Positions 2,743 through 46,366 of a stretch of 64,000 bases of DNA are shown here, in pieces (position 1 is the stretch's first letter; each line of letters starts with the position of its first letter). A model generated the notes under the pieces. That model had not been told where the DNA came from. It saw only the letters and a list, made by a program, of their open reading frames with translations, and did not search any database. Position numbers and translations under genes: made by a program. Source of the DNA: Oscillospiraceae bacterium (GTDB lineage Bacteria; Bacillota; Clostridia; Oscillospirales; Acutalibacteraceae); the NCBI GenBank assembly GCA_009784445.1, contig WRBQ01000004.1, positions 47,421 through 111,420 on the forward strand. The letters are read 5' to 3'.

Positions 2743-3243
2743 ATGGCAAATAAAGTGAAAGTAATCATCACCGACGACCAACAGCAAGTGAAGGTACCCA
2801 CCGGCATTCGCATGCTGGTGCGCCGCGCCTGCGTGGCCGTGCTGGTTAACGATGAATTCCCTCATGCAGCTGAAATCAGCGTGCGCTTTGTGGACAACGA
2901 AGAAATCCAACGCCTTAACCGCGAACACCGCAGCAAAGATGACATCACCGACGTACTTTCCTTCCCCTTGGGCGAAAACGGCAAGTACGACATCAACCAC
3001 GCCACCGGCTCCGCGTTGCTGGGCGACATCGTCATCTGCCTGCCCCGCGCGCAAGAGCAATCGCGGCTATACGGCCACACCTTCCAGCGCGAAATGGCCT
3101 ATCTCACCGTGCACTCCATGCTGCATTTGTTGGGTTACGATCACACTGCCGGCGGCCTAGACAGCGTGCGCATGCGCGAAAAAGAAGAGCAAGTGCTGGT
3201 ACAGCTCGGCCTGCCGCGCGGCTATCAATATATGCAAGAGTGA
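2743..3243 (+). CDS. ybeY: Endoribonuclease YbeY
   Basis: DDITDVLSFPLG, MAYLTVHSMLHLLGYDH metal site. Confidence 0.93.
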   Translation: MANKVKVIITDDQQQVKVPTGIRMLVRRACVAVLVNDEFPHAAEISVRFVDNEEIQRLNREHRSKDDITDVLSFPLGENGKYDINHATGSALLGDIVICLPRAQEQSRLYGHTFQREMAYLTVHSMLHLLGYDHTAGGLDSVRMREKEEQVLVQLGLPRGYQYMQE

Positions 3244-3267: not shown

Positions 3268-3301
3268 GGCGGCAGGGTTCTCCACCCCGCCGCTTGTTTT
3301 T
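3268..3301 (+). terminator. Intrinsic terminator after ybeY
   Basis: AGGCGGCAGGGttctccaCCCCGCCGCTTGTTTTTA. Confidence 0.65.
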
Positions 3302-3518
3302 ACTTCCTCTTTGTTCGCAGCCGCACACCGTGTTCCCGGCAGGCTGTGGCCTTCACCTTGCCCAGCGGTGTTTTCAACGCAAGACTGGCTTCATCTAAAC
3401 TTAGGTTAAGCACCAGCTGCGATGCCCGCAGGCTTTCTTGCGCAGTGGCAAGCTTGCGTTGCAGTTTGGCTACTTTCTTCGCTCTGCAGCCCACCGCGAT
3501 TTCACGCAAATTTCTCAT
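3300..3518 (-). CDS. Small basic hypothetical protein at the distal end of the phage-like block
   Basis: 72-aa ORF with upstream GGAGGAGAATT RBS. Confidence 0.5.
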   Translation of the reverse strand: MRNLREIAVGCRAKKVAKLQRKLATAQESLRASQLVLNLSLDEASLALKTPLGKVKATACREHGVRLRTKRK

Positions 3519-3540
3519 GTAATTCTCCTCCCATCATTGA

Positions 3541-4383
3541 TTAAACAAACGCTAAATACATATACATCCGCCCGCCCTCGTTCATCGACGGAATCATGTT
3601 GCCGCTTACGAAACCCCCGCCGTTGCGCACCAAAAAACCACTGGCCGAGATCTCCACGCCCATGCTGCCGAAATCACCCGCCGCAAAGCCAAACCACGAT
3701 TGCAGCGTGCCAACCTGTATGGCCGCCGACTGAATGCTGCTGGCAAACACAGCCCGCGGGCGAAAGCCAATGTTGATGACCCGGCTGGCTGCGCTGTTGC
3801 CTGCGTAAGTGCCTGCGCGAATGGGACTGTCAATCCATGCGCGGTCGCGTTCGTCCAGGTGCAAGTCGCGGTTATTGATGTGGCTGCCGCACAGCAAGTC
3901 TTTGTACATGAAAGACTTAAAGTCAATGCCCGTGCTTTCGGCGGGGCAAAACTGCGCATGCACATCCGTCCAAGCTTCCAGCACAAAGGCGTCGGTGTCG
4001 CGCTGGCTGCGGATTTCCCGGCAGCCGCTTGCGCGAATTTCCAAGTTGCTTGCGAATGTCATCACGTCCACCACACGGGTGAAGATTTCGTGACAGCGTT
4101 CGCCGCCCTCACTAAACGGCACGTGTATGTCAAGCCGCAGGCGTAGGCTGGCCGTGCGGCAATACTCTTGGCGTTCCAGCACGCCATTGTCGTTTTCCTC
4201 AAACTTGTCGGTAATATTCACCGAACTCATGCCCACCGCCACAATCGGGCGGCGCAGCGGCACGGCCTTGTTTCGCGCCGGAAACTCCGTCAGAAACTCT
4301 AGGCCCATCGCCACCAAGTGATCTTGTTCACTCAGCCACTGGCAAACGGCCCCTGGCAGCGCACTGATTGCACTATTGTTCAT
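3541..4383 (-). CDS. Putative phage structural protein (tail-terminator/connector-like N-half)
   Basis: MNNSAISALPGAVCQWL...; ATGA overlap with upstream ORF; position distal to the head genes. Confidence 0.5.
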   Translation of the reverse strand: MNNSAISALPGAVCQWLSEQDHLVAMGLEFLTEFPARNKAVPLRRPIVAVGMSSVNITDKFEENDNGVLERQEYCRTASLRLRLDIHVPFSEGGERCHEIFTRVVDVMTFASNLEIRASGCREIRSQRDTDAFVLEAWTDVHAQFCPAESTGIDFKSFMYKDLLCGSHINNRDLHLDERDRAWIDSPIRAGTYAGNSAASRVINIGFRPRAVFASSIQSAAIQVGTLQSWFGFAAGDFGSMGVEISASGFLVRNGGGFVSGNMIPSMNEGGRMYMYLAFV

Positions 4384-4730
4384 TCCACAATACTCCTCAC
4401 TACTGCCCAAATGTGGCTGGGTTTGTTGCCAAAGTGCACCATCTCCGCGCGGTCCACGGTGAATTTCTCTTCCCCGGTTTGAATCCACGCTTCGCGGCCC
4501 AGCTGAGTCAAGTCATGCTCAGGCGGCCCCAGATAAAGATAGTGCCCCTCGCGGTTAAAGCCGATTCGCGTGTTGATTCCGCCCAAATACATGCGGTTGC
4601 GGTGGCGCAGCGGCTGGATAAACGCGCCGAAGTTTTCGCTTTGCCAGCCGTCGGGCAGGCACACGCGCGCCTGCCGCCCATATCGCTGCATAATGTGCTT
4701 AATGTCACGCGTGACATTCATGTTATTCAT
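4380..4730 (-). CDS. Phage-like hypothetical protein
   Basis: MNNMNVTRDIKHIMQRYGRQARVCLPDGW...; overlaps the downstream gene by 4 nt. Confidence 0.5.
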   Translation of the reverse strand: MNNMNVTRDIKHIMQRYGRQARVCLPDGWQSENFGAFIQPLRHRNRMYLGGINTRIGFNREGHYLYLGPPEHDLTQLGREAWIQTGEEKFTVDRAEMVHFGNKPSHIWAVVRSIVE

Positions 4731-4738
4731 AATTTCTC

Positions 4739-4829
4739 CTAGTGATTAGTGATTAGTGCTTAGTGGTTAGTTCCAAGCAGCGGCTAAGTTAACAGCCACT
4801 AACCACTACTCACTAACCACTATTCACTG
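4739..4829. repeat. TTAGTGA-type heptamer repeats in inverted orientation
   Basis: TAGTGATTAGTGATTAGTGCTTAGTGGTTAGT ... ACTAACCACTACTCACTAACCACTATTCACT; 11-bp perfect inverted repeat TAGTGGTTAGT/ACTAACCACTA. Confidence 0.8.
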
Positions 4830-5231
4830 CGCAACGCGCACTGCCTCAAACGCCCAGCGATTATCCCGCAACAGTTCGCTGATATCCGCCATGGCGGCAT
4901 CACGTTCTGTGATGGCAATGCGCAGGCGGTCACGCGCAGCTTGGCCGCGTTTGTTCACGGTAATGTCGCCGGCCTTGAAGCTTTCCACGCCGTCGCCCTC
5001 GCTGTTTTCGCGGCGGTTGAGCAGCATCACCAGTGCTGCACAGGCCGCCGCACGGCTCAGGCGCGGGTCAGTGCGGTTAAACCACTGGCCGTCTTCGTCA
5101 CGTTTGAGTTTTGGCAGCAGTTGTTCAGTCGCTGCCGCGCAAAACGGCAGGGCCTCGTGTGCCTCATCGTCGGTCAATTCCACCAGCAGCCGCAGCTGCC
5201 CCAGCACCGTGTGTTGGTTCATATTTTCTCC
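4824..5231 (-). CDS. Phage head-tail connector-like protein
   Basis: MNQHTVLGQLRLLVELTDDEAHEAL...; immediately downstream of the capsid gene. Confidence 0.5.
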   Translation of the reverse strand, partial: GENMNQHTVLGQLRLLVELTDDEAHEALPFCAAATEQLLPKLKRDEDGQWFNRTDPRLSRAAACAALVMLLNRRENSEGDGVESFKAGDITVNKRGQAARDRLRIAITERDAAMADISELLRDNRWAFEAVRVAQ

Positions 5232-5236
5232 TTTCC

Positions 5237-5322
5237 GTTCTTTTTTGAAAAAAAGAACCAAAAAACTTTAGTCGCTTCGCGATGAATTTTTATGGGGTGT
5301 GAATAGAACACAGCGAAGCGAC
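5237..5322. repeat. Dispersed palindromic repeat, copy A
   Basis: GTTCTTTTTTGAAAAAAAGAACCAAAAAACTTTAGTCGCTTCGC...ACAGCGAAGCGAC; shared with copies at 6363 and 17815. Confidence 0.8.
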
Positions 5323-5341
5323 CAAGCCCCACCGCAGGTGG

Positions 5342-6331
5342 CTAAGCCAGCACACGCACTGCGTCTGGGAAAATTTTTGCAAAGCCCACCGTGGTGCTAA
5401 TGCCCGCGCGATGGAATTGGCGGTCAATCAAGCGGTCATAGTCGGTGATTACACCACCGGCTTGCACCATTTCAAGGGCACTCTTGTTGTCCACACCAAT
5501 GATTTGGTTGCCGCTCACTGCGGAATTCACCAACAATACCGCACCCAAGGGTGTCACAAGGTGGCCGCTGCCGTGGAAGTCTAGGCCAGCCGCGCCGTCG
5601 CGCAGTTCGGGCAATGCAAGAATTTCTTGTGCCGTGGTTTGGTTGGTTATCATTGCGCCCATGCTAAAGCCCGAGAACGAACCCCACAAGCTCACCAAGT
5701 CAGCATAAGTGAGTGTTGAGCCGCTGCGGTTAACCACGGGGGCCGCTTCCGCAACCGAGCCATCACCGTGCAGCAACGCATCAATGGCACGCTCCATTAA
5801 GTTGTAAGCAAAGCTCACGCCAATTTTGCGCAGCATCACTGCAAGCAGTTCAATGCGATGCAAGCGCAGTGTTTCGTAGGTCACGTTCAGCACGCTGCCA
5901 AACTTGTTCATTTCCACCAAATTGTCTCTGCTGCGCACCATGGTGGATGCCATTTCTTCGCCTTCTGCAGTGATGGACGCGCCTTCGCCTGCCACGCGCA
6001 CGCTACGGTAGTCGTTGCCGTCAATTTGGGTGGTGGCCGCCACGATGCTTTCTAGCTGGCTGGCTTCGGTCAGGCCTTTTTTCACTGTGCGCGAAACAAA
6101 TTCCGGGAACAATGTAGCGGTGTTTGCGTTTTGAAAGAATTTTTCCACGCGATCGCTGCTTGCGCCGCTTACGCGGATGCCAAAGCGCTTGAGCTGGCGT
6201 TCATAGGAATCCAAGCCCTCCATTGCTGTGCCGTGGTAGTTTTCGCTGGGGTCCAGCTCCTCCAGAGCTTGGGTGAAGCTTTTGCCTACGCAATACAGTC
6301 CTTTGTCCAGTTTGATGTTGTCGAATGCCAT
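5342..6331 (-). CDS. Phage major capsid protein
   Basis: 329 aa; AFDNIKLDKGLY...LTEASQLESIVAATTQIDGNDYRSV...; follows the protease gene in canonical head order. Confidence 0.75.
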   Translation of the reverse strand: MAFDNIKLDKGLYCVGKSFTQALEELDPSENYHGTAMEGLDSYERQLKRFGIRVSGASSDRVEKFFQNANTATLFPEFVSRTVKKGLTEASQLESIVAATTQIDGNDYRSVRVAGEGASITAEGEEMASTMVRSRDNLVEMNKFGSVLNVTYETLRLHRIELLAVMLRKIGVSFAYNLMERAIDALLHGDGSVAEAAPVVNRSGSTLTYADLVSLWGSFSGFSMGAMITNQTTAQEILALPELRDGAAGLDFHGSGHLVTPLGAVLLVNSAVSGNQIIGVDNKSALEMVQAGGVITDYDRLIDRQFHRAGISTTVGFAKIFPDAVRVLA

Positions 6332-6362
6332 GTGTTCGTTCTCCTTTTTAATTTTATTTCTT

Positions 6363-6410
6363 GTTCTTTTTTTGCAAAAAAAGAACCAAAAAACTTTTTC
6401 GTCGCTTCGC
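6363..6410. repeat. Dispersed palindromic repeat, copy B (truncated)
   Basis: GTTCTTTTTTTGCAAAAAAAGAACCAAAAAACTTTTTCGTCGCTTCGC. Confidence 0.8.
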
Positions 6411-6451
6411 TGTGCCCGCAGATAGGCGCAGCAAACCTCCAAACAACGGAG

Positions 6452-7318
6452 CTACACCCGAAAGCCCTCGTTATCCCCGGTGTCCGCGCGTTCACGGTTC
6501 ACCAGCTGACCGCACAGCGGCAGTGCTGCTTTGGCTTTTGCGCGCAATGTGTCACAAGCCAGCTTTAGCTGTTGTGTTGGCAATGGCTGCACCATCGCCG
6601 CCAGCAGCGCCCGGTCCATTTCCGGCATGGCCGCCGCACCCGCTTGCAGCGTTTTCTCTAGCAGCTGTGCACGATAGGCTCGTCCATCTTCCGCAAGGCG
6701 TTCAAGTTCTGCGATGTATGCCGCTTCGCGCTTAGCGGCTTTTTTGCGCACTCCGGCTGCCGGTTGCGCGGGCACCGCCACAAACGAAAACTCGTAAGCA
6801 TCCGTGGGTTCTTCCAGCACGGCGTGGCACACCGCACCGCCATAGCTTTGCCCGCGCTTGTGTGTGCATTGGTGCATGCCTTTGCCGCAAACGCTGCAGG
6901 TGATGTTCTTCACCGCGCAGGCCACGCTCACTTCTTTTTTAATGCCCGCGTCAATGTCGGCAATCAAGGTGGCGTTGCCGGCGTTACGCGGCAGATACAC
7001 CTTTGCGCACAGGCAAGCGTATTCACCATGTTCTTCCACTTGCGTGTGATAGATGCGCATGGTTTGGTCGCCGCTTTTGCCGCTGTGGTCAAACATGCCC
7101 GTTTTGCCCACGAACATGGGCGCAAGCGCATGCAAGCACTGTGTGGTGAATCGCTCGCCGTCGCGGTCCACGCGGTTGTCACATAAGGTGACGTTGAAGA
7201 CGTAAAGCTCTTCGGCCGGCAAGTTTTTGCGTGTGTGCTTGTGAATGAGCGCTAGGTCTTCCGCACTGGGTGTACCGGTGGCCTGGGTTGCGTGTTTGCC
7301 TGATTTCAAAATATCCAT
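6452..7318 (-). CDS. Phage prohead protease/scaffold-like protein
   Basis: Position between portal and capsid; coiled C-terminal part; CSVCGKGMHQCTH zinc-like motif. Confidence 0.55.
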   Translation of the reverse strand: MDILKSGKHATQATGTPSAEDLALIHKHTRKNLPAEELYVFNVTLCDNRVDRDGERFTTQCLHALAPMFVGKTGMFDHSGKSGDQTMRIYHTQVEEHGEYACLCAKVYLPRNAGNATLIADIDAGIKKEVSVACAVKNITCSVCGKGMHQCTHKRGQSYGGAVCHAVLEEPTDAYEFSFVAVPAQPAAGVRKKAAKREAAYIAELERLAEDGRAYRAQLLEKTLQAGAAAMPEMDRALLAAMVQPLPTQQLKLACDTLRAKAKAALPLCGQLVNRERADTGDNEGFRV

Positions 7319-8550
7319 TACTCTCCTCCTATCTCAATGTCGTGTTCAATGCGTGCTGCCTGCGCCCGTGCCAGCCGTGCGCGTGACAAATCAATTTCGT
7401 CCGCTAGGGTAATGTCATTCCACTCTAACGTGCAGTGCGGACTTTCACCCCAAAGGCGCAAAATTGTTTTGCACAGCTGTACAATCACCGGCGTGAGCGT
7501 GCGGCGGTAGCTTTCCAGCTCGCTGGTGAGCAGGTCGGCCTGCACGCTGCTCATGCGCTCGGTAGAACTCCACGTCAACCCCAGCAAGAACGGCGGCAAC
7601 CCGGTTTTCGCCACCACTTGCTCCAGCAGCTGGCGCACCGGCGTTTGACTGTCGGGCAGTGGCACGTCGCCACCGATGACGCTGATACGCACATCGCCCG
7701 CGGCAATGAAATCTCGCACGGCGGCACCCTCGCGCATGGCTTTTTCCCATTCCTCAGCGATGATCTTGGTGCGTTCGCCCGCTCGCGCCTGTTCGGTGGG
7801 GTCGTTACCGGGGTGATAGGTCACCGCAAAGCGCACGTTGCCCAAGCGCTCCCAGTTCAGGCCAATGGTGTCCATAATTTGCAATAGCACGCCCGCCACA
7901 AAGGGCAGTCCCTTCAGCAGCGAATTGCCCGTGAGCGCACCCGGCGCGGGGTTAAGCACGCTGCAACACAGCAGCTCGGGATGCGGCGCGGGGCGCAGCT
8001 TGCCTTGTTCTCCCGTGCAGATTTCCACGGTGATGCCGTCATTCGCCCGCCGAAAGGTGATACCCTCTAGGGGTACGTTCCACAGGGCGGCGGGTTCGCC
8101 GTCTTCGCGCAGCACCAGCTCGCCAATTGCCGTGCCGTAGGTCAACAGCTGCTCAAAGTAGCTATTGACAAAGGCCGCAATGCCGCGCTGTGTGCCCCCC
8201 ACGCTAATCATCTCCAGCATGTCGTTGAGCCGTTGCTGCACAGCTTCATCTTCGCAAATCACCGTGAAGCCGCCTACTAGGCGCACCAGACGCATGATGG
8301 CCGCGTCGATAATCGGCACCGATTCACGCAACCCACGATACAATGCAGCATGTGTGGCGGGCATGCGTGTTTCGCCTGCCCAAACGGCTTGTTCGCTGCC
8401 AAAGCCGCCGTCTGCACTGCTGCGCGCCAGTGAACCCATCAGCCCATCATAGGCCTTGCGCAATGGCCGAACCGCCCCTCTAGCCCACCTTCCGTCGTTT
8501 CGCTGTGTTCTATCCACAGCCCTGCGACGCGTTTGTTTTTCTTTCGCCAT
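7318..8550 (-). CDS. Phage portal protein
   Basis: LRESVPIIDAAIMRLVRLVGG, NPAPGALTGNSLLKGLPF, LPPFLLGLTWSSTERMSSVQADLL; overlaps the protease start. Confidence 0.78.
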   Translation of the reverse strand: MAKEKQTRRRAVDRTQRNDGRWARGAVRPLRKAYDGLMGSLARSSADGGFGSEQAVWAGETRMPATHAALYRGLRESVPIIDAAIMRLVRLVGGFTVICEDEAVQQRLNDMLEMISVGGTQRGIAAFVNSYFEQLLTYGTAIGELVLREDGEPAALWNVPLEGITFRRANDGITVEICTGEQGKLRPAPHPELLCCSVLNPAPGALTGNSLLKGLPFVAGVLLQIMDTIGLNWERLGNVRFAVTYHPGNDPTEQARAGERTKIIAEEWEKAMREGAAVRDFIAAGDVRISVIGGDVPLPDSQTPVRQLLEQVVAKTGLPPFLLGLTWSSTERMSSVQADLLTSELESYRRTLTPVIVQLCKTILRLWGESPHCTLEWNDITLADEIDLSRARLARAQAARIEHDIEIGGE

Positions 8551-8560
8551 AATTTCCTCC

Positions 8561-9808
8561 TCATCGTTTGATTGAACCCGCAAAAAATCCATCTTCGCTG
8601 CCGCGCAGCCCAAATTCCGTGGCCACAAAGTAGCGCACATCGTCCATGGCGTGATCGTATTCCTTGCGCGGTGCGTCGCGGCCACCACCGCTTTCCCAAG
8701 TGTAGGCCCCGAACTCGCGGATGCAATCGCCACAGCTTGCGTGGACTTTTAGCCTGTCCTCCCTGAGCTTATCCGCCACGAGTCGAATACCTGTCACTAC
8801 GTCGTTTTTGCCTGCGATCACCGTGAACCGCCCATGCCGCCGAATGCACTCGATGAAACTTGCCGCGCTGGGGTCACACACCACATAGCTGATTTGCCGC
8901 TCACCCGCAAGCTGTTCCAATGCACGATAGTGTTCTTCGTCTGTGCGCTGCATGGCGTTGGCGCGTGAGTCCCAGTAATACTCTGCCAGCCGCACCCAAG
9001 TGCCGTCGTCGGCCTCGCCCCACAGGCCAAAACTGCTTGGATTAACCGTGCCGTAGTCGCAGCTGATGACATGTTTGCCGCAGCGTGGCATATCGTGGAT
9101 CACATGCCTGCCGGATTCAAACATCGGGTAAACCAAGCCCTCGCTGCCCGCCCAAATGCCCTCCACAAAGCGCTTGTAAAACGCCCCGCTGTACAACACT
9201 TTGTAGCGATTGCGGATGGCGGGGTCCAAGCTTGGGTTGTCGTCCATGGTAAAGTGCATGTGCAGCGCGTTTTTCTCCTGCGCCTTGAGCACCCATTCGC
9301 GATAAAACCAGTGCTGCGGATACTCCGGGTTGCAGTTGAACCACAGCTTGCTGCCCTGCACCGAGCAACGCGCAATGGCTTGCTCCACAAAGCTGCGCGG
9401 CATCAGCGCCACTTCGTCAAACAGCACCCCGGCCAAGGTCATGCCTTGAATAAGCGCGGCCGAGCCTTCGTCTTTGCCGCCGAATAAGTACACGCGGTTT
9501 TTTTGCCGCCCAAAGCTAATGTCCAGGTAGTTTTTGCTAATTTTCTCCTCGCATTCAAACCCCAACCCGCGCAGCGTTGGCAACATGGGCGAAACGATAT
9601 TTCTTCTCAATGAGGTCATCGTTTTGCCGCAGATTGCGAAGGCCTGCCCGTTGAACTCGTGCGAAAACCAGCCAAAGAACCCCACGCACATGCTCAGCGT
9701 TTTGCCAGAGCGCACCGCGCCATCACAAACGAGTGCGTCACGCCCGGCATGCGGACTGCGCCTGTGCCACCAGTTCATTGCTGTTGCCTGATTTTTTGAA
9801 AATTGCAC
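8561..9808 (-). CDS. Phage terminase large subunit (GTG start)
   Basis: VCDGAVRSGKTLSMCVGFF Walker A-like, GVLFDEVALMP Walker B, DYGTVNPSSFGLWG nuclease motif. Confidence 0.9.
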   Translation of the reverse strand: MQFSKNQATAMNWWHRRSPHAGRDALVCDGAVRSGKTLSMCVGFFGWFSHEFNGQAFAICGKTMTSLRRNIVSPMLPTLRGLGFECEEKISKNYLDISFGRQKNRVYLFGGKDEGSAALIQGMTLAGVLFDEVALMPRSFVEQAIARCSVQGSKLWFNCNPEYPQHWFYREWVLKAQEKNALHMHFTMDDNPSLDPAIRNRYKVLYSGAFYKRFVEGIWAGSEGLVYPMFESGRHVIHDMPRCGKHVISCDYGTVNPSSFGLWGEADDGTWVRLAEYYWDSRANAMQRTDEEHYRALEQLAGERQISYVVCDPSAASFIECIRRHGRFTVIAGKNDVVTGIRLVADKLREDRLKVHASCGDCIREFGAYTWESGGGRDAPRKEYDHAMDDVRYFVATEFGLRGSEDGFFAGSIKR

Positions 9809-9850
9809 AAATTTTATGATACTTTTTCACCTCCTTACTGACCACTGCTA

Positions 9851-10156
9851 TTAATCACTCGCCACTGACCGTTCAATCGCGTCGTAGAACAGTTTCACTC
9901 CCTGCGGCACCTGCGCCAGCCCGCCCACCTCCACCAAATGCCGCATTGCCTCAAAGCGGTTGTAGAATTTGATGGTGATGTTTCCCCCCTGCTTTGCACG
10001 GGTGATTTCGCTGATGTTGAACACATCCAATTCTTCCAGTTCATGCCAGCTCACGTCTTCGTCCATAAAGAGCAATTTCAGGGCGTCATTACCTTGCCCA
10101 AACGCCAGTTTTCGGTAGCCTTTCAGCACGTCTTCCAGCTGAGATTTTTCCTGCAC
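9851..10156 (-). CDS. Putative terminase small subunit
   Basis: Upstream of terL on the same strand; MQEKSQLEDVLKGYRKLAFGQGNDALKLLF. Confidence 0.5.
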   Translation of the reverse strand: MQEKSQLEDVLKGYRKLAFGQGNDALKLLFMDEDVSWHELEELDVFNISEITRAKQGGNITIKFYNRFEAMRHLVEVGGLAQVPQGVKLFYDAIERSVASD

Positions 10157-10334
10157 TCGCTATCACCCCCCTCCATATAATCTTACAAAACCCCATTTTC
10201 TGCGCACTTTTTTGCGCAGAATTGCCGTTTTTGGAAAAAAAACATTTTTTTTTTTGATTTTTCTTGATTTTCCAAAAAAAACGCCTTGCATTTTTGTGCG
10301 ATTTGTGTTACCATATACGGTGAGGTATGCGCTG

Positions 10335-11153
10335 ATGAACGTGTTGTTTTTGTGCACAGGAAATACGTGCAGAAGTCCCCTTGCGGCCGCGCTGTTTTGT
10401 GCACCATTTTCGGTGCAATCCGCAGGGATTTGCGCCGCCGTCGGCAGCCCCGCCAGCACGCACAGCATTGCCATCGCAGCCGAACTCGGTTGCGATATTT
10501 CGACGCACGCGGCACAGCAGTTGACCTATGAACTGCTGCATTGGGCGGATGCCATCGTTTGCCTAGCGCGAAACCATGCCTTGGCCGTCGCCGATCATGT
10601 GCCGCACAGCAAGTTGCACCTTCTAGGCGGCGGAATCGCTGACCCCTTTGGCGGCACGCTTGAAGATTACCGCGCTTGTGCAGCGCAAATGCAGGCGGCG
10701 ATGCCCGCGCTGCTGCGAAATCTGCAGTGCATGGCGCAGATTGTGCCAACGCAAGCGACCCATCTGCCTGCGCTTGCGCAGCTTGAGCTCGTGGCCGAAT
10801 CTGTGCTGCGCGAAAAGCTTGCGCTAGAAACCTGCCACATGCTCACCGCGCTAATTGATGGCGAAATCGCAGGCAATATTTATGTGGATGAAATTGCAGG
10901 TGTGGCAGACATCAACAACTTGGCGGTGTTTGCCGGCTATCAACGGCAGGGCATTGCCAACCGGCTGCTTGCCCAAGCGGAACTCGGTGCCGCACTGCGC
11001 GGCTGCACGCATGTACACTTAGACGTGCGCGAAAGCAATGCCGCAGCTCGCGCGCTATATGCTTCTCGCGGATATCAAGAAGTGGGCAGCCGCCCAAGCT
11101 ACTACAGCAAGCCCACAGAGGATGCTATACTCATGACGTTGGAGATACAATGA
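10335..11153 (+). CDS. Low-molecular-weight protein phosphatase-like domain fused to RimI-type GNAT acetyltransferase
   Basis: N-term MNVLFLCTGNTCRSPLAAAL (CX5R P-loop) with C-term EIAGVADINNLAVFAGYQRQGIANRLL...LDVRESNAAARALYASRGYQEVGSRPSYY. Confidence 0.88.
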   Translation: MNVLFLCTGNTCRSPLAAALFCAPFSVQSAGICAAVGSPASTHSIAIAAELGCDISTHAAQQLTYELLHWADAIVCLARNHALAVADHVPHSKLHLLGGGIADPFGGTLEDYRACAAQMQAAMPALLRNLQCMAQIVPTQATHLPALAQLELVAESVLREKLALETCHMLTALIDGEIAGNIYVDEIAGVADINNLAVFAGYQRQGIANRLLAQAELGAALRGCTHVHLDVRESNAAARALYASRGYQEVGSRPSYYSKPTEDAILMTLEIQ

Positions 11154-12136
11154 CTATATTGGGATTTGAGACGTCGTGCGACGAAACCGCTGCCGCCATT
11201 GTGCAAGATGGCCGCAAGGTGCTAAGCAGCGTGGTGGCCAGCCAAATTGACGCCCACGCAGTATTTGGCGGCGTGGTGCCCGAAATTGCCGGGCGCATGC
11301 ACATCCAGGCCATCGCCGGAGTGTATCACGAAACCTTGGTGCAGGCGAACCTCACGCTTGACGACATTGACGCCATTGCCGTGACCCACGCACCGGGGCT
11401 AGTTGGCGCGCTGCTAGTTGGGCTGAACTTTGCCAAAGGCTTGGCTTACGCCACAGGCAAGCCGCTAATTGCCGTGCACCACCTGCGTGCACATGTGGCG
11501 GCGAATTATCTCAGCCACGCCACGTTAGAGCCGCCATTCCTATGCTTGATTGCCAGCGGCGGACACACGCACATTGTGCATGTGCAGGATTACACGTCCT
11601 TCGCCGTCATCGGCAAAACCCGCGACGACGCCGCTGGTGAGGCACTTGATAAAACCGCCCGCATGCTCGGCCTGCCTTACCCCGGCGGCATGCACTTGGA
11701 TAAACTGGGCGAAAACGGAAACCCCAATGCGTTCACCTTCCCCCGCCCAAAAGTAGATGGCGTTGACTTTAGCTTTAGCGGCTTGAAAACCGCAGCACGC
11801 AATGTGATTGTCAATTCGCAATCGTCAATGTGCAATGAAGATTTCGCCGCAAGTTTTCAGCTGGCCGTGGCGAACTATCTTTGCGACAATACCCTGCGAG
11901 CCGCCGCCGAACTCAACTGCAACCGCATAGTTCTAGCAGGTGGAGTTTGTGCCAACAGCGTGCTGCGTGCCGAAATGCAACGCCGCTGCGCTGCAAAACA
12001 AATCGAACTTTTCATGCCCGAACTGCGCTGGTGCGGCGACAACGCCGCCATGGTTGGCGCACAGGCTTTTTATGAACACCGCGCCGGCAATGTGGCCGGC
12101 AAGACGTTGAACGCACTGCCCAATTGTCCAATGTAA
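11150..12136 (+). CDS. tsaD: tRNA N6-adenosine threonylcarbamoyltransferase TsaD
   Basis: MTILGFETSCDETAAAI, GGVVPEIAGRMH, ASGGHTHI, LAGGVCANSVLR. Confidence 0.96.
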   Translation: MTILGFETSCDETAAAIVQDGRKVLSSVVASQIDAHAVFGGVVPEIAGRMHIQAIAGVYHETLVQANLTLDDIDAIAVTHAPGLVGALLVGLNFAKGLAYATGKPLIAVHHLRAHVAANYLSHATLEPPFLCLIASGGHTHIVHVQDYTSFAVIGKTRDDAAGEALDKTARMLGLPYPGGMHLDKLGENGNPNAFTFPRPKVDGVDFSFSGLKTAARNVIVNSQSSMCNEDFAASFQLAVANYLCDNTLRAAAELNCNRIVLAGGVCANSVLRAEMQRRCAAKQIELFMPELRWCGDNAAMVGAQAFYEHRAGNVAGKTLNALPNCPM

Positions 12137-12188: not shown

Positions 12189-13211
12189 ATGAAAAAATTC
12201 GTCGCGTTAGCTTGCATGCTCATTTTCACCTGCACCGCAGCCATTGTGCTGTTGGCATGGCCCGCCCAAGCATCTCCGCAAAACGATCTTGCCGCCGAAC
12301 TGTTTGCGCTAACCAACGCACACCGCGTGAGTGCCGGTTTGCCCGCACTGCTGCATGGTGGTGCCACCGTGCAAGCCGCCGCACACAGCCGTGCAGCCGA
12401 ACTGCGCCACCTAACTGACCAACAGTTTAGAAACCACGAGCGCCCAAACGGCGATGATTTCATCTGGTTGCTATTTGAATACGGCATTCCCTTCACAGAC
12501 ATTCCCAACGAGAATATTTTGCGTGGGCACGCCACCCCACAAGCTGCCATGAACCAATTTTCTAGCTCAGCGGCGCACAACAACACCATGCTGCGCGCTA
12601 GCTACACCCACTTGGCCATCGGCGTGTATGAACACAACGGTCGGCTATATTGGGCGCAGATTTTTGTGCAGTTTACGCCGACGAACTTCCCCCCAAGCAC
12701 GGCACCGAGCGGCACAACCACTACGACCACAACAACTTCAACTACGTCAACCACGACAACCACTGCTGCTGCGCCGGTAACGACGACCACAACCACCGCG
12801 CCTACTACAACTACTACCACAACCACAACGACAGGCGCAACAACGACGACTACTGCACCAACCACAACAACTACCACCACAACCACAACCGCCGCTGGTG
12901 CAACAACCACAACAACTGCTGCGCCAACGACCACAACGACGACCAGGCCAGTTACAACCACTACAGCTGCTGGTGCCACTACAACAACTACCAGACCAAC
13001 CACAACAACTGCAACAACCGCTGCAACCACGACAACCGCCGGTGGTGGTGCCGGTGGTGCTACGACAACGACCACCGCGACCACAACAACAGTGGCGACA
13101 ACGCCCCCCCCCAGTACACCTAGCTCACCACTAGCTTCAATCACCGAATTCTTCCTGTCGCTGCTTTCTGTTGTGTTTGCTTCAATTTTAAACTTTAGTC
13201 TACTCAGGTAA
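12189..13211 (+). CDS. Secreted CAP-domain protein with long Thr-rich region and hydrophobic C-terminus
   Basis: Signal peptide; ALTNAHRVSAGLPALL, NENILRGHATPQAAMNQF, THLAIGVYEHNGRLYWAQIF; poly-Thr tract. Confidence 0.85.
   Translation: MKKFVALACMLIFTCTAAIVLLAWPAQASPQNDLAAELFALTNAHRVSAGLPALLHGGATVQAAAHSRAAELRHLTDQQFRNHERPNGDDFIWLLFEYGIPFTDIPNENILRGHATPQAAMNQFSSSAAHNNTMLRASYTHLAIGVYEHNGRLYWAQIFVQFTPTNFPPSTAPSGTTTTTTTTSTTSTTTTTAAAPVTTTTTTAPTTTTTTTTTTGATTTTTAPTTTTTTTTTTAAGATTTTTAAPTTTTTTRPVTTTTAAGATTTTTRPTTTTATTAATTTTAGGGAGGATTTTTATTTTVATTPPPSTPSSPLASITEFFLSLLSVVFASILNFSLLR
12712..13108 (+). repeat. ACN triplet low-complexity tract coding poly-Thr with A/P/G/R interruptions
   Basis: Direct reading of translated TTTTTTSTTSTTTTTAAAPVTTTTTT... 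Confidence 0.9.
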
Positions 13212-13231: not shown

Positions 13232-13858
13232 ATGAAGAAAATTTTCGCTTTATTACTAACCGCTGGCATGTTGGTGGCCTTTGCGCTGCCTGCTGCCGCC
13301 AGCACTACGGTAGCCCGCGATGTGCTGTATGCGGCGGAGCGCGCAATGCCAGGCGTGGCAACTTCCACCAACACCAACGCGCAAATCCGCGATGTGCTTC
13401 GTTTAACAAACAATGAGCGCCGCATGAATTTTCGCCCTGCAGTGCAGGAAAATTCTGCACTAAACGCCGCCGCCGCTGTGCGTGCACGTGAAGCTGCACA
13501 AAGATGGAGCCACACGCGACCAAACGGACAGATTTGGCACACGGTGCTTGCGCCACATGGTGTTACTGGTTTTGCGCACGCCAGCGAAAACCTTGCAAGC
13601 ATCAGTGGCGGCGCCAACCCCGCAGACGCCGCCCGCGCAGTGGCCAGCTGGATGAGCTCCCCCGCACATCGCGAGGCGCTGCTGGGCAACCATACCCATG
13701 TGGGGCATGGGGTGTATCGTCACGTAGCGGCCAACGGCACAGTCACCTATTTTTGGGCGCAAATTTTCATGCACGACAACATCACTAGCAACACCCTTGG
13801 CATTTGGGACTTGATTGTAGGTGTCACGCTCACCCTGATGCGCGCGGTTGGATTGTAA
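13232..13858 (+). CDS. Secreted CAP-domain protein, paralog without Thr tract
   Basis: Signal peptide; LTNNERRMNFRPAVQENSALNAAAAVRAREAAQRWSHTRPNG, YFWAQIF. Confidence 0.85.
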   Translation: MKKIFALLLTAGMLVAFALPAAASTTVARDVLYAAERAMPGVATSTNTNAQIRDVLRLTNNERRMNFRPAVQENSALNAAAAVRAREAAQRWSHTRPNGQIWHTVLAPHGVTGFAHASENLASISGGANPADAARAVASWMSSPAHREALLGNHTHVGHGVYRHVAANGTVTYFWAQIFMHDNITSNTLGIWDLIVGVTLTLMRAVGL

Positions 13859-17814: not shown

Positions 17815-17904
17815 ATTACTTTTTTTGCAAAAAAAGTAATCAAAAAACCTATGCCGCTTCGCGGTGGATTTTTATGGGACTTGCGTAGGACAAAGCGAAG
17901 CGAC
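17815..17904. repeat. Dispersed palindromic repeat, copy C
   Basis: ATTACTTTTTTTGCAAAAAAAGTAATCAAAAAACCTATGCCGCTTCGCGGTGGATTTTTATGGG...ACAAAGCGAAGCGAC; compensatory changes in the stem relative to copies A and B. Confidence 0.8.
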
Positions 17905-46350: not shown

Positions 46351-46366
46351 TGCACAGCGAAGCGAC
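46351..46366. repeat. Fragment of the GCGAAGCGAC repeat abutting the transketolase stop
   Basis: GCACAGCGAAGCGACT. Confidence 0.5.

Follow-up and report, generated by a model that had tools for sequence, protein, structure and literature searches.

A putative gene transfer agent-like block of phage head and packaging genes with a reduced tail in an Oscillospiraceae bacterium

Introduction

Gene transfer agents (GTAs) are particles that host cells make and fill with their own DNA. For the alphaproteobacterial agents RcGTA and CcGTA, structural and packaging genes form a cluster that is inherited vertically and contains no replication or integration genes. Both differ from the block described here in tail type and gene set; the likeness lies in an inherited structural and packaging cluster. 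Killing particles of phage origin keep their tails and baseplates.

In Faecalibacterium (Faecalibacterium prausnitzii), the agent FpGTA has been described. Gut Ruminococcaceae, Oscillospiraceae and Christensenellaceae have also been reported to package host DNA in a GTA-like manner, but Faecalibacterium was the only one in which the search of bins identified a GTA operon (PMC12946183). The same paper cites PBSX as GTA-like, with the packaged DNA not being injected by PBSX (PMC12946183). Like PBSX of Bacillus subtilis, the block is a chromosomal phage-like element of a Gram-positive bacterium, and its fuller relatives carry Mu-type baseplate genes. PBSX, however, has a complete contractile tail, whereas in the block the tube and baseplate are gone and a fibre tip appears to sit on the tail terminator. 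The deep-sea thermophilic phage D6E has a large terminase (TerL) that is 46% identical to that of the block, and its gene order (small terminase (TerS), TerL, portal, scaffold, capsid, tape measure, baseplate, fibre) resembles the fuller elements of two families, f12 and f22. Unlike the block, D6E is a complete 49 kb phage with a holin and a lysin, and besides TerL it matched the element only in baseplate J and a short stretch of the fibre.

In this study, the window, i.e., the whole stretch of 64,000 nucleotides from contig WRBQ01000004.1 of an Oscillospiraceae bacterium, was compared with related genomes. Families are given as codes, of which f1 is taken by us to be GTDB Acutalibacteraceae, and the order Oscillospirales, based on the named members.

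Gene content and position of the block

Based on the reading of open reading frames (ORFs), family and PHROG matches and the comparison with relatives, eight conserved minus-strand genes were found to occupy positions 3541-10156 of the window (Table 1). A sequence-only reading of the same DNA had counted nine uninterrupted minus-strand ORFs between ybeY and the phosphatase-rimI/tsaD pair. The lack of interruptions and the flanks were borne out, but the number was lowered to eight, as the ORF at 3300-3518 had a homologue in none of the relatives examined and was left out of the block. The identities proposed for TerL, portal and capsid agreed with the family matches, as did the small terminase, which had been put forward with a question mark. 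The likely true starts are 8565 for the portal, 6331 for the capsid, 5222 for the 131-aa gene and 4383 for the fusion gene, and overlaps of approximately 4 nt were found between the portal and TerL (the portal start lying over the TerL stop) and between the fusion gene and g7. The gene order recurs at approximately 130 related loci, some of which are duplicates of one record, and because of this repetition the arrangement in the window is not a matter of chance.

Table 1. Genes of the block and its flanks in window coordinates
Feature	Position	Strand	Evidence
ybeY (flank)	2743-3243	+	
Fusion gene, ~280 aa: predicted tail-terminator domain and tail-fibre tip domain	3541..4383	-	AlphaFold and Foldseek; alignment with relatives
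g7, small connector, probable stopper	4380..4730	-	Position; homologues at the matching place in relatives
131-aa gene after the capsid, probable head-tail adaptor	4824..5222	-	Position; homologues at the matching place in relatives
Major capsid protein	5342..6331	-	PF25209 2.1e-10; phrog_3922 1.7e-73
Probable prohead protease with helical scaffold-like C-terminus (fused)	6452..7318	-	phrog_16951 2e-78 (unknown function); phrog_4523 head/protease 1.6e-5
Portal protein	7318..8565	-	phrog_30703 1.4e-110; PF04860 2.5e-5 (under the curated cut-off of PF04860)
TerL, large terminase	8561..9808	-	PF03237 7.5e-12; PF04466; phrog_2 1e-47
TerS, small terminase, 101 aa	9851..10156	-	PF03592 E=0.0015, profile 63-128/141 only (C-terminal part)
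Phosphatase-rimI/tsaD (flank)	10212-12136	+	

Family searches, in which three of the eight genes had no match, recognised no integrase, replication, holin or endolysin genes in the block, and neither lysis or regulatory genes nor an uptake system were recognised in or near it. The earlier statement that such phage modules are missing stood in this respect; with regard to the tail it was too broad, as a tail terminator and a fibre tip appear to remain.

Several further features of the window were observed. Near-identical repeats of AAAGAACCAAAAAACTTT are present within the block at 5241-5269 and 6369-6397 and nowhere else in the window, and those of GTCGCTTCGCTGTG at 5309-5322, 6401-6414 and 8494-8507 as well as at 46353 and, with one mismatch, at 17891; both are possibly a dispersed repeat. 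An intergenic inverted repeat with 31-nt arms of AGTGATTAGTG-like units lies at 4741-4828 of the block. Beside tsaD, a low-molecular-weight phosphatase and a RimI acetyltransferase are read as a single ORF (10212-11153), followed at 12189-13211 and 13232-13858 by adjacent CAP-domain-like secreted proteins, the first of which has a long threonine-rich tract; these functions were assigned by eye.

Packaging and head proteins

The Walker A motif (G30-K36), the Walker B residues D131 and E132 and the acidic residues D251, D312 and D389 of TerL were conserved in 97% or more of 47 relatives, and among solved structures the protein matched the terminase 5oe8/5oea in the PDB (E=1e-124). The three acidic residues are of the nuclease type, which indicates that the catalytic residues are retained. 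The TerS of the window is without the HTH-like N-terminal part that is present in many relatives of the family. This part is likewise absent in G003, G006 and G015, in seven f1 genomes that form a clade and in the six f12 genomes, i.e., its loss falls in several separate clades. No HTH match was found among the ORFs of at least 60 aa in the 900 bp upstream of TerL, a survey that a separate shorter HTH ORF could escape. The intact catalytic residues of TerL and the TerS without the HTH part are both observations that bear on a putative packaging motor of relaxed specificity. In two relatives, G008 (L028) and G137 (L077), the block begins at the portal with no terminase gene upstream at the locus, and the portal of G007 is split.

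In the protease gene, H78 and S131, as well as E176 and a Cys/His cluster, were invariant in 37 sequences, and its AlphaFold model (pLDDT 88) gave weak Foldseek matches (E ~0.1), several of which were herpesvirus assembly proteases. Because the call is based on the conservation of H78, S131 and E176 and on these weak, partly herpesviral matches, the product is considered to be a probable prohead protease with a scaffold-like C-terminus. Pfam and PHROG-type searches yielded no family match for the 131-aa gene (dN/dS 0.10), nor was one found for g7, whose relatives in the genus are 49-92% identical (dN/dS 0.06 against G003). Their position makes the former a probable head-tail adaptor and the latter a probable stopper.

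Distribution of the block and its surroundings

Portal matches were found in 12 of the 14 genomes of the genus (all nine of good quality), some of them split into two pieces, in 112 of the 200 genomes of the family (79 of 135 genera) and in 101 of the 395 genomes of the order, which were searched using profile A1 built from 35 portals. Each matching genome of the family and order samples had exactly one match. When 393 genomes from across the class were sampled, all nine matches lay inside the order, with no homologues found outside it. A match was absent from 44% of the sampled family genomes and most of the order genomes, which signifies frequent loss. Among the named GTDB genomes there were at least 564 relatives, and the best 80 of these were metagenome-assembled genomes and isolates under titles such as Oscillospiraceae, Ruminococcaceae and Clostridia. 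Cultured carriers are, for example, Caproicibacter fermentans EA1, Clostridium sporosphaeroides DSM 1294, Anaeromassilibacillus sp. An172 and Pseudoruminococcus massiliensis.

In IMG/VR, an alignment query yielded 386 relatives, while the viral-contig search with a single protein query gave no match. The best 80 of the 386 contigs were mostly 4-14 kb, and the three longest of these have host genes around the block. In a phage collection, the portal matched six records, namely one Microcystis phage (27% identity) and five unannotated human faecal contigs (MT838993, MT835508, MT835952, MT835769 and MT836604), and the capsid matched five unannotated faecal contigs only. The context was read for three of the five portal-matching contigs; MT835508 (L018), MT835769 (L359) and MT835952 (L360), all labelled Mexico, hold block genes and adjoining host chromosomal genes. 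Host chromosome joined to the block in faecal virome records could result from packaging and just as well from contamination. The sequence-only reading had held that the same block within a complete prophage of close relatives would speak against its retention; the three longest IMG/VR contigs among the best 80 and the three virome contigs showed host genes instead. One phage-like faecal contig, MT835552 (L358), was found via TerL only (55% identical to that of the window), and the remaining head genes showed no match.

Other phage regions are present in the genome of the window. The search for Baseplate_J yielded one gene there, in a contractile-tail set near a contig end (C13, L193), and a match in one of the other 13 genomes of the genus. 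This set was rejected as a second operon of the block, as it carries a serine recombinase and looks like a separate mobile prophage. Similarly, a second TerL that is approximately 40% identical (C16, L030) was not assigned to the element, since it belongs to an unrelated prophage with its own replication-type genes.

Inheritance of the block and selection on its genes

For 46 genomes, the rpoB tree was set against those of four block genes, namely TerL, portal, capsid and protease; no rpoB was found for the genome that the window comes from. The portal and rpoB trees had 23 of 43 splits in common (label shuffles: mean 0.22, maximum 3); the portal tree recovered 18 of the 25 strong rpoB splits with none strongly contradicted, and the Mantel r was 0.72. 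The splits in common with rpoB were 17 of 41 for TerL, 18 of 42 for the capsid and 19 of 42 for the protease. A concatenated tree also had 23 of 43 in common, with seven strong rpoB splits contradicted, and G393 (L212, f22) was clearly misplaced in it, beside the genus of the window. This suggests possible occasional transfer, e.g., of the G393 element between families. Moreover, different genera have flanking genes in common (mgtE was present in five genomes and degV and hflX in seven each, one of those with degV being from f22), and the tsaD/rimI flank is common to the loci within the genus of the window; this is the synteny that had been proposed as a check. Together, the congruence with rpoB, the single copy and the common flanks indicate that the block is vertically inherited in the host chromosome.

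The dN/dS was 0.05-0.13 in all eight genes compared with 0.13-0.14 in tsaD and 0.16-0.18 in phosphatase-rimI, as computed from comparisons with G003 and G005, which are the closest relatives and for which dS is unsaturated and of the same order as that of tsaD. These values are far below 1, near which the sequence-only reading had placed a refuting dN/dS, and they indicate that the genes are under purifying selection and are not decaying. The preference for retention over decay that had been drawn from the absence of frameshifts was thus upheld by the single copy per genome, the agreement with rpoB, the low dN/dS and the common flanks.

Fusion gene and reduction of the tail

The AlphaFold model of the fusion gene product had a pLDDT of 86, and its N-terminal domain matched the pyocin R2 collar, lambda gpU and phage neck proteins with a Foldseek probability of 1.0, which identifies it, as modelled, as a tail terminator. 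The C-terminal part aligns to a separate fibre gene of relatives, in which the terminator and the fibre tip are separate genes approximately 4.5 kb apart with tube and baseplate genes between them. As read from a table of approximately 130 loci that includes some duplicate records, the relatives fall into three grades: those with a contractile tail, those with a tail without the sheath, and those, including the window, in which the stretch from tube to baseplate is deleted and the terminator is fused to the fibre. Many loci of f12 and f22 have space for a tail sheath, followed by the tube, a further gap, a LysM protein, the hub and baseplate genes; the sheath gene is present in three inspected loci, L207 (by family match) and L198 and L196 (by reading frames), and other f22 loci are shorter. 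The sheath and the further gap are absent from many f1 genomes, and the baseplate genes of one f1 locus (L066) include the Baseplate_J and Mu gp48 families. The genus of the window and several other f1 genera have no tube-to-baseplate genes, the fusion being the last gene, and the loci G110/L072 and L018 stop at the tail terminator with no fibre. The genomes counted as having the fused gene, including G001, G007 and G009, whose contigs end before or within the last gene, form a clade in the rpoB tree with a support of only 0.77, which the element trees recover inexactly. This comparison indicates a stepwise reduction of the tail that ends in a gene fusion.

Comparison with FpGTA

FpGTA and the block are found in the same bacterial order. 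The baseplate, fibre and lysis genes of FpGTA lie in a second operon, and no such operon was found for the block. Genus g217 is likely Faecalibacterium, as judged by a 16S probe site and a 248-nt amplicon with primer FPR-2F in the 16S loci of eight g217 genomes. The first 16S probe search in f22 gave only the two-genome genus g290 and the second g217; the same amplicon was also found in G578 of g290, i.e., the assay is not fully specific. The TerL profile A4 had no match in 16 of the 17 g217 genomes; the single match was in G1090 (C1:19663-20556, L389; E 2.9e-88, profile positions 105-400), and the profile also matched one g359 genome (G1138:C42:49981-51168, L388) and one g343 genome. The portal search of the order sample matched no g217 genome, and nothing FpGTA-like was seen when the CP030777 coordinates of FpGTA were applied to seven complete g217 genomes. 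By this comparison, in which profiles of the block were run against g217 genomes, the block is probably distinct from the published FpGTA.

Discussion

We consider the block to be, most likely, a domesticated phage head-and-packaging element that is inherited vertically within one order and works like a GTA; among the options named by the sequence-only reading (GTA-like, satellite-like, domesticated or decayed), the GTA-like one fits the comparisons best. The features that are in line with it are a fixed phage structural and packaging cluster whose trees agree with rpoB and that has a single copy and common flanks, structural genes with a low dN/dS against G003 and G005, and a cluster in which no replication or integration genes of its own were recognised, three of its eight genes being without a family match. 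Host cells would express the portal, protease/scaffold and capsid proteins and assemble a head, into which TerL and a TerS without its DNA-binding part would load host DNA with no sequence preference. The adaptor, stopper and tail terminator would then close the neck. In the lineage of the window, the tube and baseplate genes of the ancestral contractile tail are gone and the tail terminator is fused to the domain of the fibre tip, so that the neck ring itself would bear receptor-binding tips; the loss is best read as derived. Lysis and regulation would have to be supplied from elsewhere. Particle formation, the packaging of host DNA and binding or delivery to other cells are what we infer from these genes.

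The same deficits can be read as decay, i.e., as a head module left from an old insertion that is not under selection. The lack of tail, lysis, replication and integration genes would fit such a remnant, as would the split portal of G007 and the loci of G008 and G137 without a terminase, which also count against the GTA reading and signify that packaging is not retained everywhere. The low dN/dS in all eight genes already contradicts decay, however, and the retention in a single copy with rpoB-like trees across the order, the conserved gene order and the conserved catalytic residues of TerL make it very unlikely. It is also very unlikely that the block is a phage satellite, or a minimal prophage that is still mobile, with a helper providing tail and lysis, and the satellite-like option found no support. 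Although the block is small, consists of head genes only and shares its genome with the unrelated prophage on C16 and the contractile-tail prophage end on C13, neither the integrase nor the regulatory genes by which PICI-type satellites are defined were recognised in it; its chromosomal flanks are common across genera, its trees appear vertical and no genome of the family and order samples had it at a second locus.

A capsid that was domesticated for a role other than transfer, e.g., PBSX-like bacteriocin-like killing, a decoy or storage, is a less remote alternative, though we still regard it as rather unlikely. The tail is lost or reduced and the loci G110/L072 and L018 end at the terminator, which makes the delivery of DNA doubtful. 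On the other hand, nearly all relatives have retained the terminase, with its catalytic residues, and the portal, neither of which a storage shell would need. Killing particles, moreover, retain the tails and baseplates that are deleted in the block of the window; the complete tail with sheath, tube and baseplate that is characteristic of PBSX and tailocins is absent from it, and such genes were found in other relatives only.

The GTA-like reading can be extended, more tentatively, to an ancient, Oscillospirales-wide GTA that would be independent of FpGTA and would have descended, by stepwise trimming, from a phage with a contractile tail to a particle that has no tail and bears its receptor tips on the neck ring, with a recurrent loss of the DNA-binding part of TerS; such a history is conceivable, and we do not hold it with confidence. 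If true, this would be a GTA that delivers DNA, if at all, without a tail, and the block would be the sign of a new type of GTA that lacks a tail. As a concrete gene set that is selected and inherited vertically, the element could explain some of the other cases of GTA-like packaging in the gut. Additionally, its graded tail reduction would show how a particle made by the host can arise from a phage, and if a tail is necessary at all.
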